Positions 25,508 to 56,871 of a DNA stretch of 64,000 nt are shown piece by piece; the stretch's first letter is position 1, and every line of letters begins with the position of its first letter. Location: the NCBI RefSeq assembly GCF_003610195.1, contig NZ_RAPO01000002.1, positions 62,001-126,000 on the forward strand. The letters are read 5' to 3'. Origin of the DNA: Halopiger aswanensis (GTDB lineage: Archaea; Halobacteriota; Halobacteria; Halobacteriales; Natrialbaceae). A program made the translations under genes and the position numbers. Under the pieces are notes generated by a model, which was not told the DNA's origin, did not search any database, and was given only the letters and a program-made list of their open reading frames with translations.

Positions 25508-25509
25508 CG

Positions 25510-26654: not shown

Positions 26655-26661
26655 TCTACGC

Positions 26662-28103: not shown

Positions 28104-28324
28104 TGGCGATTCTCCACGTCGAAGAGATCCGCGACATGACCCCTGCCGAACGGCAGGAGGAACTCGAGGAACTCGAGACCGAACTGCTGAACGCGAAGTC
28201 CGTCCTCGCCGCCGGTGGCGCCCCGGAGAACCCGGGCCGCATCGGCGAACTGCGTCGCACCATCGCGCGGATCAAGACGGTCCAGCGCGAGGAAGGCGAC
28301 CTCGAGGACGAAGCGGACGAATAA
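28103..28324 (+). CDS. rpl29: Large ribosomal subunit protein L29 (uL29)
   Basis: 73 residues, a two-helix hairpin at the tunnel exit: [20 protein letters not shown] and [19 protein letters not shown]. Followed by an acidic end. Overlaps rps3 by one base; the RNase P gene starts seven bases after it. Confidence 0.96.
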
Positions 28325-28331
28325 CGATAAC

Positions 28332-28739: not shown

Positions 28740-29155
28740 ACGTTGAAACCCCTCCGGAACCAGAAAACCCGGAGGAATACGACTACGAGAAGTGTCCGTT
28801 CTACGGCGAGCTCTCCGTTCGAGGCCAAGTCCTCGAGGGGACCGTCGTGTCGACGGACATGGAGAAGACCGTGGTCGTCGAGCGAGAGTACGACGTGGCT
28901 GTACCGAAGTACGACCGGTACATGAAGCGTCGCTCGCGCATCCCGGCTCACGTGCCGGGCGTGCTCGAGCCGCTCTCGGTCGGTGACACGGTCAAGATCG
29001 CAGAGACCCGACCACTGTCGAAGACCAAATCGCACGTGGTCGTCGAAGTAACCGAAGAGGCAACCGCGGAGGACGTCGCCGACCTCACCGGCCAGGCCGA
29101 GCCTGAGCCGGAGCTGTCGGCCGAGGACTTCGCGACCGAGGAGGGTGAAGAATAA
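28724..29155 (+). CDS. rps17: Small ribosomal subunit protein S17 (uS17)
   Basis: 143 residues. The OB-fold core is [20 protein letters not shown] with [18 protein letters not shown] and [20 protein letters not shown]. About 35 N-terminal and 30 acidic C-terminal residues are halophile/archaeal extensions. Its start lies inside the end of rnp1; one-base overlap with rpl14. Confidence 0.96.
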
Positions 29156-29553
29156 TGGAAGCGATGAAAGCCGACGTGACCCAGGGGCTCAAGAAGGGCT
29201 CGCTGGTCACGTGTGCCGACAACACCGGCGCACGCGAGCTGAAAGTCATCAGCGTCTCGGGCTACCACGGCACCAAGAACCGCCAGCCGAAGGCGGGTCT
29301 CGGTGACAAGGTCACGGTCTCCGTGACGAAGGGTACCCCCGAGATGCGCCGCCAGGTCCTCGAGGCCGTCATCGTTCGCCAGCGGAAGTCGATCCGCCGG
29401 CCGGACGGGACGCGACTGAAGTTCGAGGACAACGCGGCGGTCATCATCGACGAGAACGAGGAGCCCCGCGGGACGGAGATCAAGGGCCCGATCGCTCGCG
29501 AAGTCGCCGAACGGTTCGGCGCGATCGCCTCCACCGCGACGATGATCGTATAG
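29155..29553 (+). CDS. rpl14: Large ribosomal subunit protein L14 (uL14)
   Basis: 132 residues; [40 protein letters not shown] and [11 protein letters not shown] are the universal uL14 motifs. An in-frame Met three codons later (29164) is an equally good start. Confidence 0.97.
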
Positions 29554-29557
29554 AACA

Positions 29558-29926
29558 ATGACGAAGCAACCACACAAACAGCGAACGCAGACGGAGCGAG
29601 CACCGCTGCACAAGCGGCAGAAACAGCTCCACGCGACGCTGTCCGACGACCTCCGCGAGGAGTACGATACCCGTCGCACCCGCGTCAACGCGGGCGACCG
29701 GGTCGAGGTCATGCGCGGCGACCACGCCGGCGAAGAAGGCGAGGTCATCCGTGCCATCCTCGAGGACGGCGTCATTCACGTCGAGGACGTGACGGTCGAG
29801 ACGGCCGACGGCGAGGAAGTGCCCCGGCCGCTCGACCCCTCGAACGTCCGGATCACGGAGCTCGACCTCGAGGACGAGCGCCGCGAGGCGCGCCTCGAGG
29901 GCGAATCGGAAGGTGATAACGAATGA
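29558..29926 (+). CDS. rpl24: Large ribosomal subunit protein L24 (uL24)
   Basis: 122 residues with the KOW motif [19 protein letters not shown] (about residues 47-65) and the archaeal N-terminus with many Lys/Arg/Gln. Four-base overlap with rps4e. Confidence 0.96.
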
Positions 29927-30624
29927 CGAAACACCAGAAACGACTTTCGGTCCCGAAGACCTGGCCGGTCGAGCGCAAGACCGACACCTTCACCGTCAAG
30001 GCCGGCGCCGGCCCCCACGGTGAGGAGGGCGTCCCGCTCGTCGTCCTGCTGCGGGACGTACTCGGCTACGTCGACTCGACGAAGGAAGCGCGATACGCCC
30101 TCTCCGAGGACGCGATCCTCGTCAACGGGCAGCCGATCAACGACGAACAGCGTCCGATCGGCATCTTCGACATCATCGCCTTCCCCGGCCGCGAGGAGTA
30201 CTACCGCGTCTTCCCCGACGAGGGCGGTCGGCTCGCGCTGACCGAGATCGACGCCGAGGCCGCGGAAAGCCGCCTCGGCAAGATCGACAACAAGCAACAG
30301 GTTCCCGGCGGCGATACGCAGCTGACGCTGCACGACGGGACTAACGTCCTCGTCGAGGACGGCGCCGAGTACAGCAGCAACGACTCGATCGTCATCGACA
30401 ACGACGACAAGTCGATCGTCGCGCACTTCCCCTACGAGGAAGGTGCGCTCGTCACCGCGATCCGTGGCAACCACGGCGGGAAGATCGGCGAAGTCGAGAC
30501 GATCGACGTGACTCCCGGCAGCGGCTCGAACACCGTCACCGTCGACACCGAGGACGGCGGCTTCGAGACCATCGAGGAGTACGTCGTCGTGATCGACGAG
30601 AACTTCACGGGTGATGACGAATGA
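29923..30624 (+). CDS. rps4e: Small ribosomal subunit protein S4e (eS4)
   Basis: 233 residues of the archaeal/eukaryotic eS4 family. Begins [17 protein letters not shown]; an S4-type RNA-binding domain (REDs around [20 protein letters not shown]) and a KOW-like part near [15 protein letters not shown] are visible. Absent from bacteria, so it marks the cluster as archaeal. Four-base overlaps on both sides. Confidence 0.96.
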
Positions 30625-31163
30625 GCGAGGCTGACTCGGAAGCCGACTTCCACGAGATGCGGGAACCCCGCGTCGAGAAGGTCGTCGTCCACATGGGCGT
30701 CGGTCAGGGTGGTCGCGAACTCGGCCGCGCGGAGGACATCATCGAGGAGATCACCGGACAGGAAAGCGTCCGGACCCAGGCGAAGAAGACCGAACCCGAC
30801 TTCGGCATTCGCCAGGGCGACCCGATCGGCACGAAGGTTACCCTTCGTGGCGACGACGCCCACGAGTTCCTCGAGACGGCCCTCCCGCTGGCCGACCTCT
30901 CGGCCAGCCAGTTCGACGACACGGGTAACTTCAGCTTCGGGATCGAGGAACACACCGACTTCCCGAGCCAGGAGTACGATCCGAACGTCGGGATCTTCGG
31001 ACTGGACGTCACCGTCAACCTGGTGCGTCCGGGCTACCGCGTCTCCAAGCGCGACAAGGCGACGCGCCCGATCCCATCGAAACACCGACTGAACCCCGAG
31101 GACGCCGTCGCGTTCCTCGAGTCGACCTTCGACGTCACCGTGGAGGGATCCGCAGATGAGTGA
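30621..31163 (+). CDS. rpl5: Large ribosomal subunit protein L5 (uL5)
   Basis: 180 residues; binds 5S rRNA and the P-site tRNA. Motifs: [24 protein letters not shown]-like region [15 protein letters not shown] and [19 protein letters not shown]. Overlaps rps14 by eight bases. Confidence 0.96.
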
Positions 31164-31362
31164 AAGCGAAACCGAAGCCGAAACTGAAACCGAAACCGAC
31201 GCCCTCAGCACGGGCGAGCACGCCGCAAAGCGCACGGGGCAGGAAGAAGCCTGCCAGCGCTGCGGTCGCAAACAGGGTCTCGTCGGGAAGTACGACATCA
31301 ACCTCTGTCGGCAGTGCTTCCGCGAGATCGCTCGTGACATGGGCTTCAAGAAGTATCGATAA
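31156..31362 (+). CDS. rps14: Small ribosomal subunit protein S14 (uS14, zinc type)
   Basis: 68 residues. [20 protein letters not shown] with the following QC gives a CxxC...CxxC zinc site (C+ form), then [14 protein letters not shown]. The first 25 residues are a Glu/Thr-rich acidic extension whose codons overlap the end of rpl5. Confidence 0.95.
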
Positions 31363-31363
31363 C

Positions 31364-31756
31364 ATGACTGGGAACGATCCACTCAGCAACGCGCTTTCGG
31401 GCATCGACAACGCCGAAAGCGTGGGCCATCTGACCCACGAGGTAACGCCCGCCTCGAACGAGATCGGCAGCGTACTCGAGGTCTTCTACGACCGCGGGTA
31501 CATCGACGGCTTCGAGTACGTCGATGACGGCAAAGCCGGTCGGTTCGAGGTCGAACTGAAAGGAGCGATCAACGAGTGCGGCCCCGTCAAGCCCCGCTAC
31601 AGCGCCGGCGCCGACGAGTTCGAGAAGTGGGAGAAGCGATTCCTCCCCGCTCGAGACTTCGGCGCGCTCGTCGTGACGACGAGCAGCGGCATCATGAGCC
31701 ACTACGAGGCTCGTGAGCAGGGTATTGGGGGCCAGGTGATCGCATACGTCTACTAA
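31364..31756 (+). CDS. rps8: Small ribosomal subunit protein S8 (uS8)
   Basis: 130 residues, normal archaeal length. [18 protein letters not shown] begins the protein and [20 protein letters not shown] is the rRNA-binding C-terminal motif. One base after rps14. Confidence 0.97.
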
Positions 31757-31758
31757 CA

Positions 31759-32292
31759 ATGCGAGTCGAACTGGAAATCCCTGACAACGTAACCGTCGAG
31801 ATCGACCACCTCGACGTGACCGTCGACGGTCCGGAAGGCAGCGTCACCCGCCGCCTCTGGTACCCCGACGTGAGCGTCGACGTGGAAGACGACAGTGTGG
31901 TGATCGAAAGCGAGTCCGAGGACGCGAAGACCAACGCGACCGTCGGTACCTTCGAGAGCCACATCACGAACGCCTTCCACGGCGTGACCGAGGGCTGGGA
32001 GTACGAGATGGAAGTCTTCTACTCTCACTTCCCGATGCAGGTCCGCGTGGACGGCGACGACGTCGTCATCGAGAACTTCCTCGGCGAAAAGGCACCGCGA
32101 CGTACGACTATCCACGGTGATACCGAGGTTACCGTCGACGACGAGCAGCTCGTCCTCTCGGGTCCCGACAAGGAGGACGTCGGGCAGACGGCAGCCGACA
32201 TCGAGCAGCTGACTCGCGTCAGCGGCAAGGACACCCGCGTCTTCCAGGACGGGGTCTACATCACCAACAAACCCGCCAAAGGAGGTGCCTGA
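31759..32292 (+). CDS. rpl6: Large ribosomal subunit protein L6 (uL6)
   Basis: 177 residues; two repeated alpha/beta domains, the second with YSHFPMQVRVDGDDVVIENF and GEKAPRRT. ELEIPDNVTVEIDHLDVTVD begins the protein. Near the factor-binding centre of the 50S subunit. Confidence 0.97.
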   Translation: MRVELEIPDNVTVEIDHLDVTVDGPEGSVTRRLWYPDVSVDVEDDSVVIESESEDAKTNATVGTFESHITNAFHGVTEGWEYEMEVFYSHFPMQVRVDGDDVVIENFLGEKAPRRTTIHGDTEVTVDDEQLVLSGPDKEDVGQTAADIEQLTRVSGKDTRVFQDGVYITNKPAKGGA

Positions 32293-32295
32293 TAG

Positions 32296-33015
32296 ATGGC
32301 AGCCGAAGACGACGAACCACAGGAACTCGAAGACATCAGCGGTGTTGGCGCGAGCAAGGCTGACGCCCTTCGCGAGGCCGGCTTCGAGTCCATCGAGGAC
32401 GTCAAGGAAGCCGACCAGGACGATCTGGCAGAAGCCGAGGGCATCGGTAACGCGCTCGCTGCCCGTATCAAGGCCGACGTCGGCGACCTCGAGGTCACCG
32501 AAGAAACGGAGGCCGAGATCGAAGACGAAGGCGCCGAAGAAGAGGAAGAGCCCGACGAAGACGTCGAGACGGAGCTTCGTGCCCGCGGCCTGACCGAGAA
32601 GACCCCCGAGCTCTCCGAGGACGAGGAACGACTCCTCGAGCGTCGGAAGAGCGAGGGCAAGCCGCAGTTCAAGCGCCAGGACTACCACATGAAAAAGCGG
32701 ACGCCCGAATCGTGGCGCCGCCCCCGCGGCCAGCTGTCCAAGCAGCGCAAGGGCATCAAGGGCAAGGGCCCGAAGGTCCAGGCCGGCTTCCGCACGCCCG
32801 AAGCCGTTCGCGGAAAGCATCCGAGCGGCTTCGAAGAGGTCTACGTCGAGAACGTCGACGACCTCGAGGGCGTCGACGGCTCTCGCGAAGCAGTTCGCAT
32901 CGCCTCCTCGGTCGGCGCGCGCAAGCGCGAACGGATCGAGGAAGTGGCCGAGGACGAGGGCATCCGCGTCCTGAACCCGACCTACGAAGAAGTCGAGGTG
33001 GAAGCCAATGACTGA
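32296..33015 (+). CDS. rpl32e: Large ribosomal subunit protein L32e (eL32) with helix-hairpin-helix extension
   Basis: 239 residues, about 100 more than the core. The N-terminal 60 residues are a helix-hairpin-helix domain ([38 protein letters not shown]), joined by an acidic linker to the eL32 core ([39 protein letters not shown]). The extension is known in halophile L32e. Overlaps rpl19e by eight bases. Confidence 0.95.
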
Positions 33016-33457
33016 TCTCTCCGCACAGAAGCGACTGGCCGCCGACGTCCTCGACGTCGGTGAGAACCGCATCTGGCTCGACCCCGACGCCCAGGCCGAC
33101 ATCGCCGAAGCGATCACCCGCGACGAGATCCGCGAACTCGTCGAGGAAGGTCGCATTCAGGCCGAAGACACCAAGGGCAACTCCCGCGGCCGTGCCCGCG
33201 AGCGCAACGCAAAGCGCTCCTACGGCCACCAGAAGGGCCCGGGCAAGCGCCGCGGCAAGAAGGGCGCACGCCAGAACGAGAAAGAAGAGTGGGAAAGCAA
33301 GATCCGCGCACAGCGCCGGAAGCTGCGCGAACTCCGCGACAAGGGCGAACTGACGCCCACGCAGTACCGCGAGCTCTACAAGAAGGCTGGCGGTGGCGAG
33401 TTCCGCAGCGTCCGGTACCTGTTGAACTACATCGACGACAACTACGGTGACCAATAA
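33008..33457 (+). CDS. rpl19e: Large ribosomal subunit protein L19e (eL19)
   Basis: 149 residues. [20 protein letters not shown] and [20 protein letters not shown] are diagnostic; the basic segment [20 protein letters not shown] spans rRNA. One-base overlap with rpl18. Confidence 0.96.
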
Positions 33458-34005
33458 TGGCGACAGGACCACGATACAAAGTGCCGATGCGGCGTCGCCG
33501 TGAGGTCCGGACGGACTACCACCAGAGGTTGCGCCTGCTGAAGTCGGGTAAGCCCCGACTCGTCGCTCGAAAGAGCAACAAGCACACTACGGCGCAGCTG
33601 ATCACTCCCGGACCTCAGGGAGACGAGACGCTCGCGAGTGCACACTCGAGCGACCTAGAGGAGTACGGTTGGGAAGCCCCCACGAGTAACATTTCCGCGG
33701 CGTACCTGACCGGCCTGCTGGCCGGCCAGCGCGCCGTCGAGGCCGGCCTCGAGGAAGCGGTCCTCGACATCGGTCTCAACACCGCGACGCCCGGTAACAA
33801 GGTGTTCGCGGTCCAGGAGGGCGCGATCGACGCGGGTCTCGAGATCCCGCACAACGACGAGGTCCTCGCGGACTGGTCGCGCACGCGCGGCGAGCACATC
33901 GCCGAGTACGCCGAACAGCTCGACGAGCCGCTGTACAACGGCGAGTTCGACGCGACCGACCTCCCCGAACACTTCGACGACGTACGAGAGGCGATCCTAG
34001 AATGA
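33457..34005 (+). CDS. rpl18: Large ribosomal subunit protein L18 (uL18)
   Basis: 182 residues of the archaeal/eukaryotic uL18 type that binds 5S r[57 protein letters not shown]. Four-base overlap with rps5. Confidence 0.97.
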
Positions 34006-34670
34006 GCGCAAACGACTACAACGACAACGGCTGGGAACCCGTCACCCGTCTCGGCCGGATGGTTCAGGAGGGCGAAATCGACACGATGGAGGACGCCCTC
34101 AACTCGGGGCTCCCCCTGAAGGAGCCCGAGATCGTCGACCAGCTCCTCCCCGGACTGGACGACGAAGTGCTGGACATCAACATGGTCCAGCGGATGACCG
34201 ACTCCGGACGACGCGTCAAGTTCCGCTGCGTCGTCGCCGTCGGCAACCGCGACGGCTACGTCGGCTACGCGGAAGGCCGAGACGATCAGGTCGGGTCCGC
34301 CATCCAGAAGGCGATCGGTATCGCGAAGCTGAACATGATCAAGGTCCCCCGCGGCTCCGGTTCCTGGGAGGACCGCTCGGACCGGCCCCACTCCCTGACC
34401 CGACGCACGAAGGGGAAGGCCGGCTCCGTCGAGGTCGAGGTCATCCCCGCCCCCGAAGGGCTGGGGCTTGCCGCCAGCGACACCGTCCACGCGGTGCTCG
34501 ACTTGGCCGGCATCGAGAACGCCTGGACCAAGAGCCACGGCAACACTCGGACCACGGTCAACCTCGCGAAGGCGACGTTCAACGCACTGGAGAACGCATC
34601 GCAGTCGCGCCACCCGCGGCGTCGCTCGGGTGCGAACCGAGACCGAGACGAAGCCGAGGTGACTGAGTAA
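34002..34670 (+). CDS. rps5: Small ribosomal subunit protein S5 (uS5)
   Basis: 222 residues. The double-stranded RNA-binding part is [20 protein letters not shown] and the C-terminal domain has [20 protein letters not shown] and the [13 protein letters not shown] motif. One-base overlap with rpl30. Confidence 0.97.
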
Positions 34671-35137
34671 TGAAGGCAGTCGTTCAGGTTCGCGGCGAAG
34701 TGAACCGCCAGCAGGACGTTCAGGACACGCTGGAGATGCTGAACATCCACAGCGTCAACCACTGCGCGCTCGTCCCTGAGACCGACACCTACACGGGAAT
34801 GGTCAACAAGGTCAACGACTACGTCGCGCACGGCGAACCGAGCGCCGAGGTGCTCGCAGCCGTGCTCGCAAAGCGCGCAGAGCCCCTCGAGGGCGATCAG
34901 TCCGACGTCGACGCCGACTGGCTCGACGAGAACACCGGGTATAGCGACTTCGAGTCGCTGGCCGAAGCGCTGCTTGCCGAGGAGACGACGCTGCGCGAGC
35001 AGGGACTGTCCCCGACGCTTCGTCTGCACCCGCCCCGCGGCGGTCACGACGGCATCAAGAAGCCGACCGCCGAGGGCGGCCAACTCGGAAAGCATACAAC
35101 GGACGAAATCAACGACCTGTTAGAATCGATGCGATAA
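34670..35137 (+). CDS. rpl30: Large ribosomal subunit protein L30 (uL30)
   Basis: 155 residues, the long archaeal form. [20 protein letters not shown] and NHCALVPETDTYTGMVNKV are family marks; the C-terminal half (RLHPPRGGHDGIKKPTAEGG) is specific to archaea and eukaryotes. Confidence 0.97.
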   Translation: MKAVVQVRGEVNRQQDVQDTLEMLNIHSVNHCALVPETDTYTGMVNKVNDYVAHGEPSAEVLAAVLAKRAEPLEGDQSDVDADWLDENTGYSDFESLAEALLAEETTLREQGLSPTLRLHPPRGGHDGIKKPTAEGGQLGKHTTDEINDLLESMR

Positions 35138-35139
35138 CC

Positions 35140-35652
35140 ATGACGAGTAAAAAACGACGCCAACGCGGGTCACGAACGCACAGCGGCGGCTCCCACAAGA
35201 ACCGACGTGGTGCGGGCCACCGTGGCGGTCGCGGCCGCGCCGGGCGCAGCAAGCACGAGTTCCACAACTACGAGCCGAAGGGCAAGCACGGCTTCAAGCG
35301 GCCCCAGGACATCCGCGAAGAGGTCGCGGAGATCGACGTCCAGAAGCTCGACGAGGACGCCATCCTCTACGCGGCCGAGGGTGTCGCCGAGGAAACCGAC
35401 GACGGCTACGCGATCGACGCACGCGACGTCGTCGAGGACGGCCACGAGGTCGACACCGTGAAGGTCCTCGGCTCCGGCCAAGTCCGCAATGCCCTCGAGG
35501 TCACGGCCGACGCCTTCTCGGATGCGGCCGAGGAGAAGCTCGCGGACGCCGGCGGCGAGGCGGTCCTCTCGGAACGAGCGCAGGAACGAGCGGACGCTGA
35601 ATCCGAGTCGGATACGGACGCCGCTGACGAAACCGAACAGAGCGAGGACTAA
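35140..35652 (+). CDS. rpl15: Large ribosomal subunit protein L15 (uL15)
   Basis: 170 residues. The basic glycine-rich start (KKRRQRGSRTHSGGSHKNRR) and GRAGRSKHEFHNYEPKGKHG are typical; LGSGQVRNALEVTADAFSD is the C-terminal fold. An acidic 30-residue tail follows. Two bases before secY. Confidence 0.97.
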   Translation: MTSKKRRQRGSRTHSGGSHKNRRGAGHRGGRGRAGRSKHEFHNYEPKGKHGFKRPQDIREEVAEIDVQKLDEDAILYAAEGVAEETDDGYAIDARDVVEDGHEVDTVKVLGSGQVRNALEVTADAFSDAAEEKLADAGGEAVLSERAQERADAESESDTDAADETEQSED

Positions 35653-35654
35653 CG

Positions 35655-37118
35655 ATGGGATGGAAGGAAGCCGCTGAACCGGTCTTAACGCGGATGCCCG
35701 CCGTCCAGCGTCCGGAGGGGCACGTCCCCTTCAAGCGGAAGCTGGCGTGGACGGCCGGCATTCTCGTGTTGTATTTCTTCCTGACGAACATCTCGCTGCT
35801 CGGGATGCAATCCGGCGGCGCGAACGACCTCTTCGGCCAGTTCCGTGCGATCCTCGCGGGGTCGCAGGGCTCGATCCTGCAGGTCGGTATCGGACCGATC
35901 GTCACGGCGAGCATCGTCTTGCAGTTGCTCGGCGGTGCGAACCTGCTCGGTCTCGACACCAACGATCCGCGGGATCAGGTTCTCTACCAGGGGCTCCAGA
36001 AGTTGCTCGTCGTCGTGATGGTGGCACTCACTGGGCTCCCGATGGTGTTCGCCAGCGGCTTCCTGCCAGCCCAGCCGTCGCTGTCGATCGGCGGCCTCCA
36101 GTTCGGTCAGACGCAGGTCCAGCTGCTGATGTTCCTGCAGATCTTCGCTGGCGGTATCCTCCTCCTCTACATGGACGAGGTCGTCAGCAAGTGGGGCGTC
36201 GGGAGCGGGATCGGCCTGTTCATCATCGCCGGCGTGAGCCAGCGACTCGTGGCCGGGTTCATCCAGCCCGCACAGGGCGGGTTCTTCTACAACTGGTACA
36301 TGATCCTCACGGGGCGGATGGAGGTCGGCTCCGTCGTCTCCACCGACGGGCTCTCCACGCTGCTGATGACCGACGGCGGGATGATCATCCCGCTGCTGAC
36401 GACGCTGCTGATCTTCGGCATCGTCGTCTACGCGGAGTCCGTGCGGGTCGAGATCCCGCTCAGTCACGCCCGCGTGAAGGGTGCTCGCGGCCGCTTCCCG
36501 GTGAAGCTCATCTACGCGAGCGTCCTGCCGATGATCCTCGTCCGCGCGCTGCAGGCGAACATCCAGATGCTCGGCCAGATCCTGAACAGCCAGTGGGCCG
36601 GGATGCCCACCTGGCTGGGCCAGTACACCGACGGGCAAGCGGTCGGCGGGTTCTTCTACTACCTGTCCCCGATCTACTCGCCCCAAGACTGGATGTGGTG
36701 GACCGGTGCCGTCACCCAGGAAGCGTGGCAGGTGCTGATTCGCGTCTCCGTCGACCTCACCTTCATGATCGTCGGCGGCGCGATCTTCGCCGTCTTCTGG
36801 GTCGAAACGACGGACATGGGTCCCGAGGCTACCGCCCAGCAGATCCAAAACTCCGGGATGCAGATTCCCGGCTTCCGACAGAACGTCGGCGTCATCGAGA
36901 AGGTCATGGAGCGGTACATCCCGCAGGTGACCGTCATCGGTGGCGCGCTGGTCGGCCTGCTGGCCGTCTGGGCGAACATGCTCGGCACTATCGGGTCCGT
37001 TACCGGAACCGGCCTGCTGCTGGCCGTCTCCATCACCTACAAGCTCTACGAGGAGATCGCCGAAGAGCAGATGATGGAGATGCACCCGATGATGCGCCAG
37101 ATGTTCGGCAAGGAGTAG
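35655..37118 (+). CDS. secY: Protein translocase subunit SecY
   Basis: 487 residues, ten membrane helices; the central channel for protein export and membrane insertion. Plug and pore motifs fit archaeal SecY: the start GWKEAAEPVLTRMPAVQRPE, IGPIVTASIVLQLLGGANLL, and the cytoplasmic loop before helix 9. Loops facing outside are longer than in Methanocaldococcus. Last gene of the superoperon, followed by a hairpin terminator. Confidence 0.97.
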   Translation: MGWKEAAEPVLTRMPAVQRPEGHVPFKRKLAWTAGILVLYFFLTNISLLGMQSGGANDLFGQFRAILAGSQGSILQVGIGPIVTASIVLQLLGGANLLGLDTNDPRDQVLYQGLQKLLVVVMVALTGLPMVFASGFLPAQPSLSIGGLQFGQTQVQLLMFLQIFAGGILLLYMDEVVSKWGVGSGIGLFIIAGVSQRLVAGFIQPAQGGFFYNWYMILTGRMEVGSVVSTDGLSTLLMTDGGMIIPLLTTLLIFGIVVYAESVRVEIPLSHARVKGARGRFPVKLIYASVLPMILVRALQANIQMLGQILNSQWAGMPTWLGQYTDGQAVGGFFYYLSPIYSPQDWMWWTGAVTQEAWQVLIRVSVDLTFMIVGGAIFAVFWVETTDMGPEATAQQIQNSGMQIPGFRQNVGVIEKVMERYIPQVTVIGGALVGLLAVWANMLGTIGSVTGTGLLLAVSITYKLYEEIAEEQMMEMHPMMRQMFGKE

Positions 37119-45498: not shown

Positions 45499-47025
45499 CT
45501 ACTTCTCGCGGACGTCGACCGTGTGTTCGGCGATGTTGAGATACGTCAGTTGGGGCGGCAGCAGACTCGGGTCCGGATAGATTCCCACGTCCTCGTCCTG
45601 GAGTTGCTCGTCGTACTCGAAGTCGATGCTTCCTTTGCCGCCCTGTATCTCGACCGAGGAGGCGATTATCGATCCGTAGAAGTTCGGATTCGAGTGAATG
45701 CACACCTGCTTATCACACCCGTGTCGTTTCGTCCAGTCCTCGTTCGTTCCACCGGCGTAGATGACGCCCTCGAATCGAGATTTCCCACCGGGACCGAAGT
45801 CGATCTCGGACTCGTCCGACGTGACTAACTGAATCACCGTTGCGTCTTCGTTCGTGTAGCATCCTGACTCCGTGACGCAGATGTTGCCGCCGTTTTCAGC
45901 ATCGTAGTCCCCGGTGAGATACACGCTCAGTTCGTGGTCGTTCTCGTGTTCACTCACCGTGATCGTCTCGTCGTTCGCGTTAATGTCGCCGTCGACGACG
46001 AGCGTCGCGTTGCCGTCCGACAGGTCAAACTCGAGATGCCCTGCCTCTTCGATCCCGTCGGCAACGTAGATCCCGTCCTCGAGGCTATCGTTGTGTTCGT
46101 CGACCGTCCCGAGGCGCGTAATCTCCGTTCCTTCGAAGGTATCCTTCGGTGCGCGCGTCGCGTTGACCAGTCGATTTACTTCCTCGGTGAGCGGCGGATA
46201 CGCGACCTTCTGTGTGAGGTCGTCGTCGACCGCTGCACCGCCCTGTACTTCGAGGTTCGTCGCGTAGATCGCACCGGTTTTGAACGCGTCCGAAACCTCT
46301 TGGTAGCCGAACTCCGCAGTCACCGTTCCCGTCTGATTGTCGTACACCTCGACGTTTCTGACGGTCGTCGCGCCGCCTTGCTCTTCGAAGAAGCGTTCCC
46401 AGCCGCGGTAGTACTTACTCGTCACTTCGATCGTCACCGTGTCGTTTTCGACGAGACTGCTACCGCCGAGCGGATCCGTTTCGTAGTGATCCACGACGAT
46501 GTCTCCGGATCTGAGGCGCGTTTCGTCGCGGACCTCGGTGATCGGGAACGACAGCGTCTCCGAGTCGACGTCGTACTCGATCGGCGGCGCGGAGATAATT
46601 CGCGTTTGGTTCCCGGTCTCTCTGAAGACGCCGCCCGCCTGGTAGGCAATTTTCGTCCCGTCGTCGTCTTGGTACTCGATCGCCCCGATCGAGACGTTCT
46701 TGTTGACGTCACCACCCGAGATGGAGATCTGACCAGTATCCGTCATTACGACCGCCCCATCCTGATCCGTCTGGAGGTTCAACGCTCTCGAGCTGTCGCC
46801 GGCGGACGACGCGGTCGCCATCTGTTGGCTTAGTTCGACGAAGCCGCTCTCGATCCGCTCGTGTTCGGACTGGCGCTGTACGCTCGTGAGACTGTCATCG
46901 GCGACGAGAACCATACTGCTGCCGACGACCGCGACCATTCCGATCAGCAATATCAGTCCAAGGAGCGTGGATTCGGCGCGACCTGATGAAACGGCAACGG
47001 ATCTCTCCTCACGACGCCAACTCAT
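45499..47025 (-). CDS. Large pilin-like surface protein
   Basis: 508 residues. The first 45 residues look like an archaeal type IV pilin N-terminus: a basic stretch (SWRREERSVAVSSGRAES) followed by a single helix TLLGLILLIGMVAVVGSSMV, which may be a class III signal. The rest is extracellular-type: beta-rich, many Asn-Gly-Thr sites, and two Cys pairs (CVTESGCY, CDKQVC). It resembles its neighbour 47227-49887 over about 250 residues (such as VNKNVSIGAIEYQDDDGTKI versus ALRYKDGSENELLYQAG), so the two are paralogues. Probably a pilus or surface adhesin subunit. Confidence 0.65.
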   Translation of the reverse strand: MSWRREERSVAVSSGRAESTLLGLILLIGMVAVVGSSMVLVADDSLTSVQRQSEHERIESGFVELSQQMATASSAGDSSRALNLQTDQDGAVVMTDTGQISISGGDVNKNVSIGAIEYQDDDGTKIAYQAGGVFRETGNQTRIISAPPIEYDVDSETLSFPITEVRDETRLRSGDIVVDHYETDPLGGSSLVENDTVTIEVTSKYYRGWERFFEEQGGATTVRNVEVYDNQTGTVTAEFGYQEVSDAFKTGAIYATNLEVQGGAAVDDDLTQKVAYPPLTEEVNRLVNATRAPKDTFEGTEITRLGTVDEHNDSLEDGIYVADGIEEAGHLEFDLSDGNATLVVDGDINANDETITVSEHENDHELSVYLTGDYDAENGGNICVTESGCYTNEDATVIQLVTSDESEIDFGPGGKSRFEGVIYAGGTNEDWTKRHGCDKQVCIHSNPNFYGSIIASSVEIQGGKGSIDFEYDEQLQDEDVGIYPDPSLLPPQLTYLNIAEHTVDVREK

Positions 47026-47226
47026 GGGCCTCTCGAGGCAAACGAGTGGGATAATGGCCTCGTCCGATCAAACGCTTCAGAATCGTTCAGGTTCGTTCAC
47101 AGCGAGAATACGTTCATTGGTAAGACAACGAAATAACTACTGCTGACGCCAAACTACCCATCATCTTTCCGAATGAACCGTTTGAACAATCGCTGGTATC
47201 GAACTTACTCTTTCGCGGGTTGGTCT

Positions 47227-49887
47227 CTAGTCCTCAATAGTCACGTGATGTTCGTCGACGTTGAGTACGTATTCGTTCGAGCTTCCATCGATTTGTGGTT
47301 CCATTGCTGCTTCGAAGGTAACATCCGCCTCTTCCTCGATGACATCGTTGGCGATCCCTTCGAAGATTTCCTCAAGCTCCTCGGCATTATCAATCATATG
47401 GAATTCGCCCTCGTCGGTCGTTATGTCCCGTAGTAACTCTTTGTCGATGTTGTCCTCGCCGAGACCGATTGTATATACGGTAACGCCCAGATCGGCGGCT
47501 CGATCAGCCTGCCTTTTCGTGTGTTGATCTGCTGCCTCCGAACCCCCTCTTCTGGGATTGTTTTCTCCGTCGCTTAGGACAACCATGACGCGATCCCTGG
47601 TACTTGTCGGACCCCTATACTCGTCAAGTGCGAGTTCCATGCCTGCCGAAATGTCCGTGTATCCGCTACCCGTAACGTCGACGCTTTGCCGAACTGCCTC
47701 GAGATCGTCGCTCAGCGAGTGGAGTTCGTACCCGCGATCGTTAAACTCGTAGACACCAGCACGGTCGTCGTTGGATTCGTTCATGAGGCCGATAAAGTCC
47801 CGCGTTGCATCACCGCGGAGGCCGGTTGGATCGTTTCCATCGACTACCTCGAAGGTTGTAACCTCGCACCGGTCACACGATTCATTTGCAACTCGCACTT
47901 CTGTCGTCCAAGTTCGATCGTGAACAACATACATCGAATTCCCTGGTTCGATTGTCGTTCTGTATCCACATCTTCCGTTGTTGCAGTACTGCACTTCGAT
48001 CGAATGATTTGCTCTCGGATCTAACAGCGCTTCAGTACCTCGTCTCGTTCGTAGTGGTGCGTCCTGCCAGACATTGCCGGTGACTGTCCCACTATCGTAG
48101 ATATCACCCATTGACCCAGACCGGTCGAGTACGAACGTAACGTCAAGCGGGGGTCTAGTTTTCGTGTCCTTGACCGAGATATTCCGATTCTCGGGCGGAA
48201 TCGGTACGTCAGTTCGGAGCGATCGATCGAAGTTGATCGTCGCATCGTCGCCGAGTTTTGTTTCACCCCCAACGATAGCCCCGGTGATGTCGGCGTTGTC
48301 CTCAATCGTCATTTCGCTTCCTGGAGCGTAAACGACACCCTCGTACTCGTCATCAACCGTTACTTCGGCACGCTCAGTCCCGTATACCCAGAAAGCTCCC
48401 GCTCTGTCATCGGGCTGAATATCGATATTACCGACCGTTAATCGATCATCTGTATTAGTATAGACAAACGTCTGATTTCCGCCAGTGATTTCGATATCTG
48501 AAATATCAATATAACCACGTTTATCAATCCCGATGTGGACATCGCCGTTCGAGGTATCGATCTCGTCCACATCGAGTTCGTCTCCGTAGTACAGCCCCGC
48601 ATCAATCGTACTTCCGCGTCCAGGAATCGGATCGACGTCTTCGTGGTCTTCGAGATAGGGCAGCGCCTTGTTCTCGAGTTTCGCGGTGACCGGCTGGACC
48701 GTCTCAACCGATTGTGACATGTTCGCGATCAGAGCGTTTTCCTCGCCCGTCAGCCAGAAAACGGCCGTCGATCCGTTCTCCGTGGTATTGATGTACTCGT
48801 ACTCGCTCGGTGCGGCTCCTCGCTCGAGGTTCGCAGCGTATCCGATCGGTGAAATAGACGGATGGCCACTTGCGGCGGTTATCGAGTCGTTGACGACGGG
48901 TGTTCCCTCGATATCGGCACCGCTATTCAGTTCGAAGTCATCGTCGACGACGAACAGGTCTTTCGAGACGTTGTCCGTCGTGTCGTGATTCTCGTACCCG
49001 GTTACGGTAAACGGCGCTCCGTGCTGTCCCGTGATACTGTCTGCGTACAAGCCCCCGTACACCGTCGGCGTAATCCCGACCTGACTTGCAAACGAGTTCT
49101 CGAGGTCGATTGTGGCCATAACCGTTATCGAATCCCCATCTTCGCAGATGACGTTTGTATCCGGCTGTCTAGGACAGGTACCGACCTCAGTTGCGTCGAA
49201 CTCTGATTTGAGGAAATCAACCCACGCATCACGATGTGGTGGGTCCTCGACCGTTATTTCGACGTGACGAACGAATCCAACCTGATCCATTACACGCTCG
49301 AGATCCGCTGAACTCGAATTTTTGTACTGGACTGTGTGTTCACCGTTCCCCACATTACCGTCCATATCCGTCACCGAGAGGTCAATCCGACCAACTTCCT
49401 TGCCCTCGGCATTTGTTTCCTCATAGTAGCGGATGTCGGGCTCCGAAATCAGCGTCGTTGTCTGGTCAGTGACCCGCCAGACTCCGCCGGCCTGATAGAG
49501 GAGTTCGTTCTCGGAACCGTCTTTATAGCGGAGTGCGCCGATCGAAATCGGGTCAAGATCTTCCTCGTAGAATCCGTTCGAGACTGTAATCTCCAACTCT
49601 CCGCCGTTGATTAACTCGCTTCTGCCCTCTTCAGGAAGATAGGCGGGATGTCTCGTATCGTTATCGAATAGGGATGTCGAGAGGTCCTTGTCGAACTTGA
49701 CCATCAACTGCTCGCTCTGTTCCGCAGAAATTTGCCCCTTGACCGCGTCGTTCGTTCCCATCCCGACCATGAGAATGAGCATACTACCGGCAAGCACGAG
49801 CCCGATCAGCAGTATGAGCCCAATAATCGGACTCACTCCCCGACTACCGCTGTTACTACTAGTTATTCGCGATGTCCGCACCCTCAT
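47227..49887 (-). CDS. Pilin-like surface protein with von Willebrand A domain
   Basis: 886 residues. N-terminal pilin-like helix GVSPIIGLILLIGLVLAGSM (about residues 17-36) after a basic, Ser-rich start. Residues 45-560 are beta-rich, with repeated strands near EGVVYAPGSEMTIEDNADIT. The vWA domain begins at about residue 580: MIDAS DRSGS with Asp588, Thr in GSGYTDISAG and Asp in VVLSDGENN; an insert with three Cys lies inside it. The MIDAS binds a divalent metal and usually ligands. Anchored by the helix, this looks like an adhesive pilus or surface tip subunit. Codon bias is weaker than in nearby core genes, hinting at recent acquisition. Confidence 0.75.
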   Translation of the reverse strand: MRVRTSRITSSNSGSRGVSPIIGLILLIGLVLAGSMLILMVGMGTNDAVKGQISAEQSEQLMVKFDKDLSTSLFDNDTRHPAYLPEEGRSELINGGELEITVSNGFYEEDLDPISIGALRYKDGSENELLYQAGGVWRVTDQTTTLISEPDIRYYEETNAEGKEVGRIDLSVTDMDGNVGNGEHTVQYKNSSSADLERVMDQVGFVRHVEITVEDPPHRDAWVDFLKSEFDATEVGTCPRQPDTNVICEDGDSITVMATIDLENSFASQVGITPTVYGGLYADSITGQHGAPFTVTGYENHDTTDNVSKDLFVVDDDFELNSGADIEGTPVVNDSITAASGHPSISPIGYAANLERGAAPSEYEYINTTENGSTAVFWLTGEENALIANMSQSVETVQPVTAKLENKALPYLEDHEDVDPIPGRGSTIDAGLYYGDELDVDEIDTSNGDVHIGIDKRGYIDISDIEITGGNQTFVYTNTDDRLTVGNIDIQPDDRAGAFWVYGTERAEVTVDDEYEGVVYAPGSEMTIEDNADITGAIVGGETKLGDDATINFDRSLRTDVPIPPENRNISVKDTKTRPPLDVTFVLDRSGSMGDIYDSGTVTGNVWQDAPLRTRRGTEALLDPRANHSIEVQYCNNGRCGYRTTIEPGNSMYVVHDRTWTTEVRVANESCDRCEVTTFEVVDGNDPTGLRGDATRDFIGLMNESNDDRAGVYEFNDRGYELHSLSDDLEAVRQSVDVTGSGYTDISAGMELALDEYRGPTSTRDRVMVVLSDGENNPRRGGSEAADQHTKRQADRAADLGVTVYTIGLGEDNIDKELLRDITTDEGEFHMIDNAEELEEIFEGIANDVIEEEADVTFEAAMEPQIDGSSNEYVLNVDEHHVTIED

Positions 49888-50076
49888 TTACTCACTCTAA
49901 TATTATCGTCATAACATAAAACCACGGTAACTGCTGTTTGAAACGATTAAATTACTCTGTGAGATGGAATTATACGAAGTTATTTAGAGAAAGCAATCTC
50001 TCTCCACATGACGGATTTGCCCGCTGTCTCCGCGAAGAAAAACACTTGTATACCGGACGAACCCTAGCACACCCAG

Positions 50077-52778: not shown

Positions 52779-52849
52779 GGGACCGTGGGGTAGTGGTATC
52801 CTCTGCGGATGGGGTCCGTAGGACCCGAGTTCAATTCTCGGCGGTCCCA
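52779..52849 (+). tRNA. tRNA-Pro (anticodon GGG)
   Basis: 71 bases: acceptor GGGACCG/CGGTCCC, D arm with GTAGTGGTAT, anticodon stem TGCGG/CCGTA around ATGGGGT (anticodon GGG), T arm CCGAG/CTCGG around TTCAATT, and discriminator A. CCA not encoded. Accessory genes begin about 100 bases downstream; a second copy of the tRNA 3' end was not found in the window. Confidence 0.95.
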
Positions 52850-52949
52850 CTTCTAATTCCCTAAGTGTTCAACCGTTAGGCTCTCATACCTCTGAGCCTG
52901 CCGAAAATCCAGTTCTCGCTTTAGGGATAATTACAGATGGCGGACAGAA

Positions 52950-53198: not shown

Positions 53199-53650
53199 CG
53201 GTCGCCGAGAATCGCGAGCGCGGCCACTACGTCGAGACCGCTGCCTGCGACCGCTGGCCCCTCGAGCGTGTCGACGACGATCGTGCCGAGTGGCACGATC
53301 TCGAGTTCGTCCAAGACCTCGTCGGTGACCGCGCCGGCGTGATCGCGACGGCGGGCGAGGTCGCCGAAGCGAAGTCATGTTACGAGACCTACGACGGCCG
53401 CGCGGGTCGCTGGTGGATCCGACGGGAGAACCACGAGCGACTTGTCGGCGTCGACGGCTGGTACATCCTCGTCGTCCTCGAGCGCGAGTCCGACGAGATA
53501 CTGCGGATCGCATTGACGCGTGCCGCGACGGTTGACCGGATCATCGACGGGAACTGGTGGGAGTGCGGGAACGGTGGGCGCAGCGCCGAGCAGTACCGTC
53601 AGATTGCGTGGACTGCAGTCTTCGACGGTGTCGGAGGTGAGTGGTCATGA
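53195..53650 (+). CDS. Probable PD-(D/E)XK nuclease-like protein
   Basis: 151 residues. The pattern Asp in the WHDLEF region, then AEAKSCYETYDGRAGRWWIR with E-x-K, and strand GWYILVVLE is like the core of PD-(D/E)XK enzymes and like small proteins of halophile proviruses. An early Glu (GHYVETAACDRW) could be part of the site. No target is known. Overlaps neighbours by four bases on both sides, so it belongs to one operon with the methylase. Confidence 0.55.
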   Translation: MTVAENRERGHYVETAACDRWPLERVDDDRAEWHDLEFVQDLVGDRAGVIATAGEVAEAKSCYETYDGRAGRWWIRRENHERLVGVDGWYILVVLERESDEILRIALTRAATVDRIIDGNWWECGNGGRSAEQYRQIAWTAVFDGVGGEWS

Positions 53651-54510
53651 AAAGCGCGTTCCCGTACATCGGTGGGAAGACGCGCCTAGCTCGGTGGGTA
53701 ATCGATCACCTACCGGAACACACCACCTATGTCGAACCGTTCGGCGGGTCGGCGTCGGTGTTGTTGAACAAACCACGAAGCGACGTCGAGATCTTCAACG
53801 ACAAGGACAGCGACGTCGTGACGTTCTTCCGGGTTGCCCGCGAGCGGCCGGACGAACTCGCGGAGTGGTGTCGGTATACGCCGTTTTCAGAACAGCTTCA
53901 CGACGAGTGGGCCGACGAGTTCTTCAGCGGCGAGCGGCCAGACGACGACGTCGAGCACGCCGGGAAGTGGTTGTTCCTCCGGTACAGTCAGTACGCGGGG
54001 AAAGTATCGCGTAAAAGCGGGTTCAAACGCGAGAGTCCCCGCGACGAGAAGGGTAGCCGGAACGCGAGAAACTGGGTCAACGCGCCGGAGCGAATCGAGT
54101 ACGTCGCCGAGCGGTTCCGCGGCGTCTCGGTTGTTCACGAGGACTACCAAGACGTCGTCGAGCGGTACGATTCCCCCGAGACAGTCTTCTACATTGATCC
54201 ACCGTACTACCAGAAAGAGGACCTGTACCGGGAATCTGCCGAGCACGCCGCCCTCGAGCAGACCCTTTGTGATGTCGACGGACATGTTCTCGTCTCCTAT
54301 ACTGAGATCCCGCCCGGACTGTACGAAGGTGATACCTGGAACGTCGTCGAACGGACGGTGACTCATTCCGCGGCAGGAACCGGGAAGACGGCAGACGAGC
54401 GGCTGATCATGAACTTTGAGCCGTCGACAGAACGGGAGTTTACCCAGCGAACGCTCACTGACGCGGTCGACGCTCGACAGGCCCGGCCAGACGGGGGTGA
54501 TTCCCGGTGA
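53647..54510 (+). CDS. DNA adenine methylase (Dam/D12 class)
   Basis: 287 residues. AdoMet motif I FPYIGGKTRLARWVIDHLPE and EPFGGSASVLLNKP, and catalytic motif IV YIDPPYY are intact. This class methylates adenine N6, the recognition site cannot be read from sequence. A GGAGGTGA site six bases before the ATG at 53647 sets the start. It is coupled to the nuclease-like gene before and the DUF488 gene after (four-base overlap). Confidence 0.92.
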   Translation: MKSAFPYIGGKTRLARWVIDHLPEHTTYVEPFGGSASVLLNKPRSDVEIFNDKDSDVVTFFRVARERPDELAEWCRYTPFSEQLHDEWADEFFSGERPDDDVEHAGKWLFLRYSQYAGKVSRKSGFKRESPRDEKGSRNARNWVNAPERIEYVAERFRGVSVVHEDYQDVVERYDSPETVFYIDPPYYQKEDLYRESAEHAALEQTLCDVDGHVLVSYTEIPPGLYEGDTWNVVERTVTHSAAGTGKTADERLIMNFEPSTEREFTQRTLTDAVDARQARPDGGDSR

Positions 54511-55034
54511 CGGTCCATACGACGTACTTCGGCGGAATCTCACAGTTCGATCCGCCTGAGGGAGACGATGTCTTCGGCGTAGTCCGATACCCGAAGGATT
54601 TCGTCGAACGGGTCACCGACCGGAATATCCCAGCAGTCGCGCCGCCGGGGGATCTACTGAACGCCTACAAGACCGTCGAGAACGCCGCCGAGGAAGACGA
54701 CGAGCCCAACCCCGCGGCAATCGCTTGGAACTCCGTCGACTACGAACGCCGGTATCTCGGGTACCTCGAGCGGGACGGTCCCCAGGCGCTGATCGACGAG
54801 TTGGCCGATCGCGCACGCGAGCGTGATATCTGGTTGGTGTGCTGGGAGAAGGACGCCCGGTGGTGTCACCGCCGACTGCTCGCGAACGTCGTCGTCGAGC
54901 GCCTCGAGGATTCCGAGGTAGTCCATCACCCGGACCCATCGACGATTCCGGTCAATACTGCTGGCGACGAACCCAGCGATAGCACCGATGAGACAGCCAC
55001 ATTGCGAGACTTTGCGGAGGCTGGAGGGGACTGA
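54507..55034 (+). CDS. DUF488 family protein
   Basis: 175 residues. The C-terminal motif LVCWEKDARWCHRRLLANVV (Cys-x-Glu ... Cys-His-Arg) is the DUF488 signature. An acidic tail of 35 residues follows. Function of the family is unknown; members are common on mobile elements and next to nucleic-acid enzymes. Overlaps the methylase gene by four bases. Confidence 0.8.
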   Translation: MTVHTTYFGGISQFDPPEGDDVFGVVRYPKDFVERVTDRNIPAVAPPGDLLNAYKTVENAAEEDDEPNPAAIAWNSVDYERRYLGYLERDGPQALIDELADRARERDIWLVCWEKDARWCHRRLLANVVVERLEDSEVVHHPDPSTIPVNTAGDEPSDSTDETATLRDFAEAGGD

Positions 55035-55036
55035 CG

Positions 55037-55255
55037 ATGGACCTAACAGCCTTTGGCCTCGAGCCGCAGGACTCGCCAGCGTCCGAGGATGACACGTCTG
55101 ACGATGTCGACAACGAGTCCGACGACGTCGACAATGAGCAGGTCTGGAGCGAGTGCGTCGACTGCGGGTACGCTGGCTATGAGGTGCAGGTTCGTCGCGA
55201 GAGCGGCGTGCTGCTCTGTCCATCGTGTTTCGCCGACCGGGAGGGGCTACGATGA
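55037..55255 (+). CDS. Small zinc-ribbon protein
   Basis: 72 residues: an acidic N-terminal half (Asp/Glu/Ser) and a zinc ribbon SECVDCGYAGYEVQV with LLCPSCFADREG. Starts two bases after DUF488 and overlaps the next gene by four bases. Likely part of the same element operon; role unknown. Confidence 0.65.
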   Translation: MDLTAFGLEPQDSPASEDDTSDDVDNESDDVDNEQVWSECVDCGYAGYEVQVRRESGVLLCPSCFADREGLR

Positions 55256-56871
55256 CGCAAGTCGAAACGACACCTCACGAAAGCGAGGGGCGCTGGAAGT
55301 GGCCCGACTGGGGCCGTGGTCCGTACGATGCCCTCTCATCGGTTATGCTCGGGCCGCCCTTCGAGGGCTACCTGGAGCTGGACGTCGAGGTTGACGGCGA
55401 ACCGTGGCACCTCGAGGTGAGCTACAGCAAGTCGGGGTTCGCACCACGGCTATCGGACGGAATCAACGCCGAGCGATTGTACGAGTGGGACATCCGCGGA
55501 CGCGGGCGCGGCGAGCGAAAGGCGTCGTTCAATATCTCGCCGCGGTTCCCGAACATGCGTCACTGGGAGACCGGCGAGCTGGTGAATCTCCCCTGGGAGA
55601 ATCAGGTCGGCGAGGTCGACGGCGTCGACGTCGAGTTCCACGTCAGTAACATCGAACCCGGCCACGGCCTCGAGTTGCTGCCGGAGTTCTTCGCGGCGAT
55701 CTTCGAGCACGCAGGCGAGCGCGTGCATCCGGAGTACTTTCGCGCGGATCCGCACTCGGCCAGCCGCATGTGGGCGTACGAGCGCTACGTTCGTATCCGT
55801 CGGCAGTGGGCTGAAAAGCTCGCATCGGCCGGTGTCCTGCAGAAAGTAGTTCATTTCCTCTCGGACCTCGAGGGCGTGAAGGCGGAACTGTACCTGGACA
55901 ACGAGGAAGTGATCAACCACCAGAACCGGCTGATTCTCGATCCGACGTCGGCTGCGAAGTTGCTGCCGGGACACACCTACGGGCGGAAATTCGAGATTTA
56001 CCAACTGGCTGATCCGGACGCGGTGTCGAAGGATCACCCGTCGTACCATCCGAAGGTGGAAGTCCTAGTGAACAAGTCGATGAACGACGGCGAGGCATGG
56101 GCATGGGCAGACCGCCACGAAGTGACCGAGCAGATCGAGGAGACGCTATTGAACGCACTTCACTGGGAGGATATTCCGCTCGGACCTGATGGGAACGACG
56201 TGTACGTCCCCGACGATCACTTCGACGCTGTCGCTCGAGAGGAGTCAGTCGAACTCTATGAAGATCCAACGCCGCGCCTCGAGGCGAAGACGGATCACCT
56301 GTTGATGACGACGTTGCGGGACATGGGCGAGACCGCGCGCGAAGTGACCGAGACGGTCGCAACCGATGGCGGTAGTACCGTCGACGGCCTGGCCGACGAA
56401 CTCGGCAAGCACCCCGCGACGATCTACCGGGCGATCGAAGACCTCGGCGACATCCTCGAGCTGGACCAGGGCGAGATTTCGTTCCGGGCGCGCAAGTACC
56501 AGGAGGAGTTGCGCGCGCTCGTCGAGTCGGCAGAGTACGCAATCGAGAGTTTTGCTGATCGAATTCAGCACGTGATGGGCTTGGCCGATCACATCGCCGA
56601 TTCATCGCCATTCCAGCGGTGGCTCGCCGAGAACGGCGCTGAAATCCAGTACGACGAGAACGGCGATCCGCGGACCGTCCGAATCGATACGATCCTTTCC
56701 GAACTGAAGTCGAGTAGCTTCGAGAATGTGCGGACGATCGCCGCCGAGGCGCTCGAGAAGTGGCGGAAGTCGGGCAACGACCCGGCGCTGTTACGCCGTG
56801 CTCAGTTGACCTGGAAGGCTCCGGGCGGCGGCACCGAGGTTGGATTCGTCGGTGCGATCGCCGACCGCTGA
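55252..56871 (+). CDS. Large haloarchaeal protein with C-terminal winged helix (DUF7845-like)
   Basis: 539 residues, soluble. The N-terminal 330 residues form a region I know only from haloarchaeal mobile DNA (EGRWKWPDWGRGPYDALSSV; ASRMWAYERYVRIRRQWAEK; SYHPKVEVLVNKSMNDGEAW). Residues about 355-410 are a winged helix (GSTVDGLADELGKHPATIYR) followed by a helical end. It may bind DNA as a replication or regulatory protein of the element. The family name is given with moderate confidence. Confidence 0.65.
   Translation: MTQVETTPHESEGRWKWPDWGRGPYDALSSVMLGPPFEGYLELDVEVDGEPWHLEVSYSKSGFAPRLSDGINAERLYEWDIRGRGRGERKASFNISPRFPNMRHWETGELVNLPWENQVGEVDGVDVEFHVSNIEPGHGLELLPEFFAAIFEHAGERVHPEYFRADPHSASRMWAYERYVRIRRQWAEKLASAGVLQKVVHFLSDLEGVKAELYLDNEEVINHQNRLILDPTSAAKLLPGHTYGRKFEIYQLADPDAVSKDHPSYHPKVEVLVNKSMNDGEAWAWADRHEVTEQIEETLLNALHWEDIPLGPDGNDVYVPDDHFDAVAREESVELYEDPTPRLEAKTDHLLMTTLRDMGETAREVTETVATDGGSTVDGLADELGKHPATIYRAIEDLGDILELDQGEISFRARKYQEELRALVESAEYAIESFADRIQHVMGLADHIADSSPFQRWLAENGAEIQYDENGDPRTVRIDTILSELKSSSFENVRTIAAEALEKWRKSGNDPALLRRAQLTWKAPGGGTEVGFVGAIADR

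Follow-up and report, generated by a model that had tools for sequence, protein, structure and literature searches.

A von Willebrand A domain on a giant pilin-like protein of Halopiger aswanensis: a candidate tip subunit of an archaeal type IV pilus

What role may be played by two oversized pilin-like proteins that are encoded side by side in a locus without pilus genes? The two genes lie in a 64,000-nucleotide stretch of DNA from Halopiger aswanensis (contig NZ_RAPO01000002.1, positions 62,001 to 126,000), which is referred to below as the window and to which all coordinates refer. The upstream gene of the pair encodes an 886-residue protein with a von Willebrand A (vWA) domain, termed here the vWA giant, and the other a 508-residue protein without this domain, termed the partner. 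A preliminary description, made from the sequence of the window, had taken them for paired pilin-like proteins and the larger one for a possible new design of adhesin. The explanation favoured here, and held with fair confidence, is that the vWA giant is a tip-located minor type IV pilin bearing a ligand-binding head with a metal-ion-dependent adhesion site (MIDAS), and that the machine handling it is encoded elsewhere.

Domain composition and predicted folds

Both open reading frames (ORFs) with a pilin-like start are present as previously described (Table 1), and the region reported as common to the two proteins consists of two Pfam domains, DUF7289 and DUF7305. A profile search, suggested in the preliminary description as a way of defining the family, places both proteins above the Pfam gathering cut-off, which is 27 bits for either domain: DUF7289 (PF23960) scores 57.1 bits in the vWA giant and 78.8 bits in the partner (E 5.9e-22), and DUF7305 (PF23981) scores 97.9 and 115.3 bits, respectively. 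In a BLASTP comparison of the two proteins the best piece shows 28% identity over 131 columns. The vWA domain of the larger protein is matched by PF00092 at E 6e-13. Of 34 distinct vWA giants, 27 were aligned (alignment A1; seven were omitted as close to others), and a second alignment (A2) holds 13 proteins, which gives 40 proteins in both. All 27 members of A1 match DUF7289 and VWA at E ≤ 0.01, and 25 of them match DUF7305. The Pfam E-values and a MIDAS conserved among the 27 relatives rule out chance resemblance.

The MIDAS, which had been reported as complete with Asp588 in the motif DRSGS, possesses all five residues, and it can be called complete because D588, S592, T744 and D773 are invariant among the 27 aligned vWA giants and S590 is at least 90% conserved. 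The Cys-containing insert, also seen earlier, is located between DRSGSM and the remainder of the vWA domain and comprises 92 residues with four Cys. An arm of 74–105 residues is found in 17 of the 27 relatives, while the corresponding segment is 3–20 residues long in the other 10. Two loci (L047 and L049) encode tandem vWA giants, and at each of them one protein has the arm (74 or 90 residues) and the other is without it (3 or 19 residues).

The AlphaFold2 model of the 886-residue protein contains N-terminal helices, beta domains and the vWA domain; the helices span residues 21–40 and 44–72, with low confidence at residues 1–19 and 35–46. The VIA-align list for this protein spans residues about 577–852 only, and in it the vWA model aligns with ANTXR2 (Z 23.2, root-mean-square deviation (rmsd) 2.2, 174 residues aligned), the pilus-tip vWA domain of Mfa5 (6tnj, Z 22.0) and the ArnB-type 8s05 (Z 21.5). 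Foldseek listed PilB of Streptococcus sanguinis (7b7p, E 9.6e-6), which superposes only in part on the model, since the rmsd is 19.4 over 404 columns; the profile match to 7b7p is confined to one short stretch (profile positions 573–618, E 0.0073). The DUF7305 domain of the partner is predicted from its model to be an ice-binding-type beta-solenoid: with VIA-align, run on Foldseek candidates, residues 243–479 matched the ice-binding protein 6eio (Z 14.4) and residues 246–484 matched ComZ (6qvi, Z 9.9, 190 residues).

The last strand of the partner, TYLNIAEHTVDV, resembles that of the vWA giant, YVLNVDEHHVTI, and more loosely those of short DUF7289 proteins. When a profile of the partners' last strand was applied to the 27 vWA giants (767–997 windows each), the best of nine tail windows ranked tenth or higher in 21 of them. 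This short motif, which the partner and the vWA giant have in common, suggests that the solenoid and the vWA domain are inserted before the last strand of a pilin.

An arginine followed by glycine or alanine ahead of a hydrophobic segment is the archaeal prepilin motif. Among the 40 aligned proteins, the arginine directly before the hydrophobic segment is followed by Gly or Ala in 38 and by Ser in two. The genome encodes an A24 prepilin peptidase and has five matches to T2SSE.

Table 1. Positions of the pair and of its modules within the window
Feature	Position	Strand	Basis
vWA giant pilin-like protein, 886 residues, upstream gene of the pair	47227..49887	-	ORF; DUF7289 + DUF7305 + VWA
Partner giant pilin-like protein, 508 residues, without vWA	45499..47025	-	ORF; DUF7289 + DUF7305
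Prepilin-like motif SRG|VSP (R16-G17; putative cleavage site) and N-terminal helices of the vWA giant, residues 16-72	49672..49842	-	
DUF7289 of the vWA giant, residues 16-251	49135..49842	-	Pfam PF23960, E 2.4e-15
DUF7305 of the vWA giant, residues 413-559	48211..48651	-	Pfam PF23981, E 8.7e-28; many short strands in the model
vWA domain of the vWA giant, residues 578-852	47332..48156	-	PF00092; structural alignment to ANTXR2 and Mfa5
MIDAS motif DRSGS, residues 588-592 (with T744, D773)	48112..48126	-	Conserved in 27 aligned relatives
Arm with Cys residues, next to the MIDAS, about residues 594-684	47836..48108	-	92 residues with 4 Cys
C-terminal strand YVLNVDEHHVTIED common to the vWA giant and the partner	47230..47271	-	Rank 1 of 865 windows, profile of the partners' C-terminus
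Partner's DUF7305 (predicted beta-solenoid), residues 264-477	45595..46236	-	PF23981, E 3.9e-33; model alignments
Part of the window that blastn (E ≤ 1e-10) does not match to locus L050 of the congener; contains the entire vWA gene	47088..50032	.	Flanks 92-93% identical

Pilus machinery and genomic settings

The best DUF7289 match in the H. aswanensis genome is a 259-residue protein encoded by the last gene of a PilB/PilC operon, which comprises a T2SSE ATPase of 1395 residues, a T2SSF protein of 690 residues, DUF7287, DUF7288, a DUF7261-like protein (25.2 bits against a cut-off of 27), DUF7266 and the DUF7289 protein itself. We take this operon to be of the PilB4 type of Haloferax, given how long its ATPase is and that it has a pilin set of its own (PMC4858521).

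In a class-wide sample of 292 genomes, DUF7289 occurs in 287 and DUF7305 in 192. For each domain the best 150 places were listed, with 70 genomes in both lists. Of these 70 genomes, 52 do not belong to the home family (f1), and 39 of the 52 have a listed DUF7305 giant no more than 6 kb away from a listed, separate DUF7289 gene, the two genes being convergent in 38 of the 39; this compares with 0 of 18 genomes of the home family. The nearby DUF7289 genes are open frames of 246–456 residues. Short DUF7289 genes stand beside the giant at four of the loci fetched from relatives (L074, L075, L080 and L084), and at the first three PilB and PilC show 66–68% and 60–63% identity, respectively, to the proteins of the H. 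aswanensis genome. PilB and PilC were seen directly in that genome and at these three loci, and elsewhere DUF7289 served as their marker. The linkage in 39 of 52 versus 0 of 18 genomes, together with PilB/PilC at L074, L075 and L080, makes it plausible that the giants arose beside the pilus operon and then moved away from it in the home family.

Together with the window, 34 loci were compared, of which 33 were fetched from relatives. The giant adjoins adk, directly or via the partner, at 17 of them, and EMC3/DUF106 lies on the opposite side at 14 of the 17. A second recurrent site, near a gene which we take to be ABCE1-like, accounts for 15 loci, and two loci have neither site. The partner is present at 12 of the 17 adk-linked loci and at none of the 15 second-site loci, which rules out an obligatory pair.

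At the second site, a relative of a protein matching PDB 9p0a 'Pilin' is encoded near the giant at 11 of the 15 loci (L042, L044, L045, L095–L097 and L100–L104; E 2e-83 at L042). CARDB, S26-peptidase-type and DUF5305 genes accompany it at 10 of these, and the eleventh, L101 at a contig end, has CARDB only. The 11 loci possibly contain a haloarchaeal SipW-type pilus operon, and because of the 9p0a-like pilin near the giant, the latter could also act in, or attach to, another type of pilus. A search by code found no paper for 9p0a. Giant pilin-like proteins of about 1030–1050 residues, with CARDB-like segments and no vWA match, are encoded at two further loci (L068:7956-11105 and L069:6545-9649); the former has a DUF7289 match, the CARDB-like segment of the latter is below the cut-off, and a 9p0a-like pilin is present in both loci.

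At E ≤ 1e-20, 41 of 125 genomes of the home family match, some of them over the pilin part only. In the class-wide sample, matches to the vWA giant at E ≤ 1e-25 are found in 24 of the 292 genomes, 22 belonging to the home family and two to family f7, the latter covering just residues 566–873 and 682–878. A scan of named genomes yielded at least 10 loci, seven in halophilic archaea and three being partial rhizobial matches (residues 503–845, 558–852 and 765–846); the relatives with a genus name belong to Natrinema, Natrialba, Haloterrigena, Halovivax and Natronoglomus, which makes Natrialbaceae the probable home family.

Elsewhere in the window, the plus strand carries an extended series of ribosomal-protein-like genes (23550–37118), which, judging by the appearance of their translations, has the character of an S10/spc-type cluster. 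Genes for a D12-class adenine methyltransferase, a DUF488 and a DUF7845 protein stand in a row (53641–56871) by a tRNA-Pro gene (52779–52850), and several genes of this row have relatives at the same site in locus L039. Between positions 56001 and 64000 the guanine-plus-cytosine (GC) content drops from about 0.62 to 0.41–0.57; this part, which contains four ORFs without Pfam match and small translations of AbrB-like appearance at 59086 and 61592, is probably an integrated element.

Variation of the vWA gene and of its head

Compared with the same-genus genome G009, the proteins flanking the pair are 94.4–98.7% identical, the partner is 92.1% identical and the vWA protein 42.3%. At the DNA level (blastn), the window matches its congener with 93.3% identity up to position 47087 and 92.2% from position 50033, with nothing in between, and the congener's vWA protein is closest to that of L048 (60.2%), not to that of the window. 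Seventy-eight pairs of adk-linked loci (from 13 of the 17 loci) were compared; in the two further pairs whose flanks exceed 96% identity, the vWA protein is still 85–90% identical, so the window and its congener are an exception and not the outcome of a uniformly fast clock. Judged from these sequences, the vWA gene has been swapped between the two genomes.

Such exchange has a precedent, since the exchange of cassettes at a fixed site is reported in Halorubrum ezzemoulense (PMC11078007), where one pair of homeocassettes involves vWA-domain proteins and another consists of two type IV pilus islands next to tadC. The homeocassettes are similar in being mutually exclusive islands at one site between core genes, but they are multi-gene islands within one species. 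Low GC content was dropped as a sign of recent transfer: the giants (0.50–0.64) are below the mean of their neighbours (0.60–0.69) at all 21 loci compared, which makes a low GC content a habit of the family.

In L046/L051, one of the two further pairs with flanks above 96%, the part of the vWA domain after the arm (residues 685–852) is 71% identical, whereas the other modules are 86–96% identical, and the long arm is present in one protein and absent from the other. Exchange combined with divergence of the head would be expected of a surface-exposed ligand-binding head under selection. Relaxed constraint is an alternative explanation of the head's divergence, against which the conserved MIDAS speaks.

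A tip pilin and its alternatives

In the mechanism proposed for the tip pilin, both proteins would be exported, cut by a PibD-type (A24) peptidase after R-G or R-A, and anchored in the membrane through their N-terminal helix. A type IV pilus machine with genes elsewhere, most likely a PilB4-type PilB/PilC, would then incorporate them, and they would come to occupy the tip because the head appears too bulky for the filament shaft. DUF7289 would form the pilin base. A ComZ-like beta-solenoid would interrupt it ahead of its last strand, and the larger protein would have the vWA domain between the solenoid and this strand; the partner would be a second tip subunit without vWA. The MIDAS would bind a divalent metal, and MIDAS and arm together would recognise a ligand on other cells, on the matrix or on surfaces. 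Gain and loss of the arm and whole-gene exchange among close relatives would follow from selection on this ligand. Archaeal type IV pili are adhesive, and the vWA head, too, probably has an adhesive role. A more specific version is offered tentatively: a three-module tip pilin composed of a base, a solenoid stalk and a vWA head with an optional arm, nested before the last strand, with a gene that can be swapped whole at a fixed site and with the fastest diversification in the head.

The placing of a vWA domain on a type IV pilin is already established in bacteria, and the earlier claim of a new adhesin design cannot be kept in that form. S. sanguinis PilB is a bimodular minor pilin with a vWA domain that contains a complete MIDAS flanked by arms, and a tip position has been proposed for it (PMC8179133). 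It joins a type IV pilin N-terminus and a complete-MIDAS vWA domain on one chain, with arms beside the MIDAS, as the vWA giant with its pilin-like N-terminus appears to do, but its vWA domain is at the end of a small pilin module, whereas here the vWA domain comes after DUF7305 and seems to have a last strand of pilin type behind it. It is the predicted solenoid–vWA form in archaea that is a new variant. In ComZ of Thermus thermophilus, a solenoid likened to the ice-binding protein FfIBP interrupts the pilin ahead of its last strand, and a location at the tip is argued for ComZ (PMC6561018). It shares with the present proteins an ice-binding-like beta-solenoid on a pilin and a neighbouring second pilin, but lacks a vWA domain and binds DNA, and the likeness is at the level of the fold, as taken from the predicted partner model. 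The signature minor pilin of the euryarchaeal PilB3/PilB4 systems, arCOG02911, is duplication-prone and has about 250–550 residues (Makarova et al. 2016, PMC4858521); we infer that it corresponds to DUF7289/DUF7305. No vWA fusion is described in the available part of that paper. Mfa5, from the tip of a type V pilus, and PilY1 (as presented in PMC8179133) also have a vWA domain at a pilus tip but are not type IV pilins. No archaeal vWA pilin was found in the available literature, with subscription journals and bioRxiv preprints outside the search, nor, in the parts of the sources at hand, an archaeal pilin with a recognised separate ligand-binding domain; a search by name found no paper naming DUF7289 or DUF7305.

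Several results weigh against the tip pilin. No pilus assembly genes are located near the pair, and the pilin interpretation of the preliminary description is upheld by the tie of the family to a type IV pilus operon elsewhere but not by the window's own locus, just as the separation of giant and DUF7289 gene in the home family, given above, counts against it. Its reading of the N-terminus is upheld by the pilin-type segment with R-G/A; with TIGR02537, the archaeal pilin N-terminal model (class III signal peptide), the vWA giant falls just short, scoring 19.3 bits against a cut-off of 20, and the partner is unlisted up to E 1; at E ≤ 0.01 this model matches four of the 27 vWA giants, and Pilin_N matches three. 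The PilB ATPase scores 28.1 with Pfam PilB3_C, over the cut-off of 27, with PilB3_N below its cut-off, and L084 has short pilin genes and no PilB/PilC match within the fetched stretch. Both models derive from shallow alignments and have low-confidence N-termini (27 sequences and a mean predicted local distance difference test (pLDDT) score of 78.9 for the vWA giant, 13 sequences and 73.5 for the partner), and Foldseek alone gave nothing for the partner model at E ≤ 0.001. The partners' last-strand profile reaches rank 1 in just seven of the 27 vWA giants, and a combined last-strand profile gave ranks 8, 1, 1, 4 and 2 on five short DUF7289 proteins.

Some of these points would equally suit a membrane-anchored surface protein that is not a pilus subunit, with the helix as a cleaved or uncleaved anchor and the vWA head acting at the cell surface, in the S-layer or in cell–cell contact. 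The locus without pilus genes and the weak matches of the pilin N-terminal models agree with such a protein, and so do 14 of the 17 adk-linked loci, where adk and EMC3 flank the giants and pilus genes are absent, but we consider it unlikely: DUF7289 is itself a pilin-like member of the PilB/PilC operon, giants of the same family stand by a separate DUF7289 gene in most of the genomes listed outside f1 (39 of 52), and R-G/A is found at the start of the helix in 38 of 40 proteins.

It is also improbable that the vWA giant belongs to the SipW-type pilus, which we take to be of the donor-strand, TasA/AbpA-like kind, as its anchor, nucleator or binding partner. The operon of this pilus is divergent from the giant in several genera, the 9p0a-like pilin is near the giant at 11 of the 15 second-site loci, and the L068 and L069 giants without vWA also share their loci with such a pilin. 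However, tblastn with the 9p0a-like pilin finds nothing at any of the 17 adk-linked loci, the window's included, the pilin is missing at four of the 15 second-site loci, and in the H. aswanensis genome its best relative lies on the contig of the pair at a distance of about 1.1 Mb, with a weaker one at about 0.4 Mb. Very little probability is given to a vWA domain that serves to anchor the pilus and has no external ligand, as a scaffold or regulatory part of the kind found in ArnB and TadG-type proteins. In its favour, vWA proteins have been connected with archaeal pili in a regulatory role, bacterial TadG is regarded as a likely pilus anchor (PMC4858521) and the ArnB-type 8s05 is among the fold matches. 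Against it, the N-terminal pilin segment predicts an extracytoplasmic vWA domain, and divergence focused on the head, as well as gene exchange, would be unexpected for an internal scaffold.

If the three-module tip pilin proves true, archaea would have in it an equivalent of variable tip adhesins, in which the exchange of one gene alters the recognition of kin, surfaces or viruses; species-specific recognition has been the subject of work on the Ups pili of Sulfolobales (PMC7064770). The exchange of a single gene between near-identical flanks hints at selection on the ligand of the head. Because the same kind of gene adjoins the possible SipW-type pilus operon in other genera, it may couple two unrelated filament systems. 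With a candidate ligand-binding head, a carrier family (DUF7289/DUF7305, both of 'unknown function') and a likely machine, adhesion by the tips of archaeal pili becomes testable.

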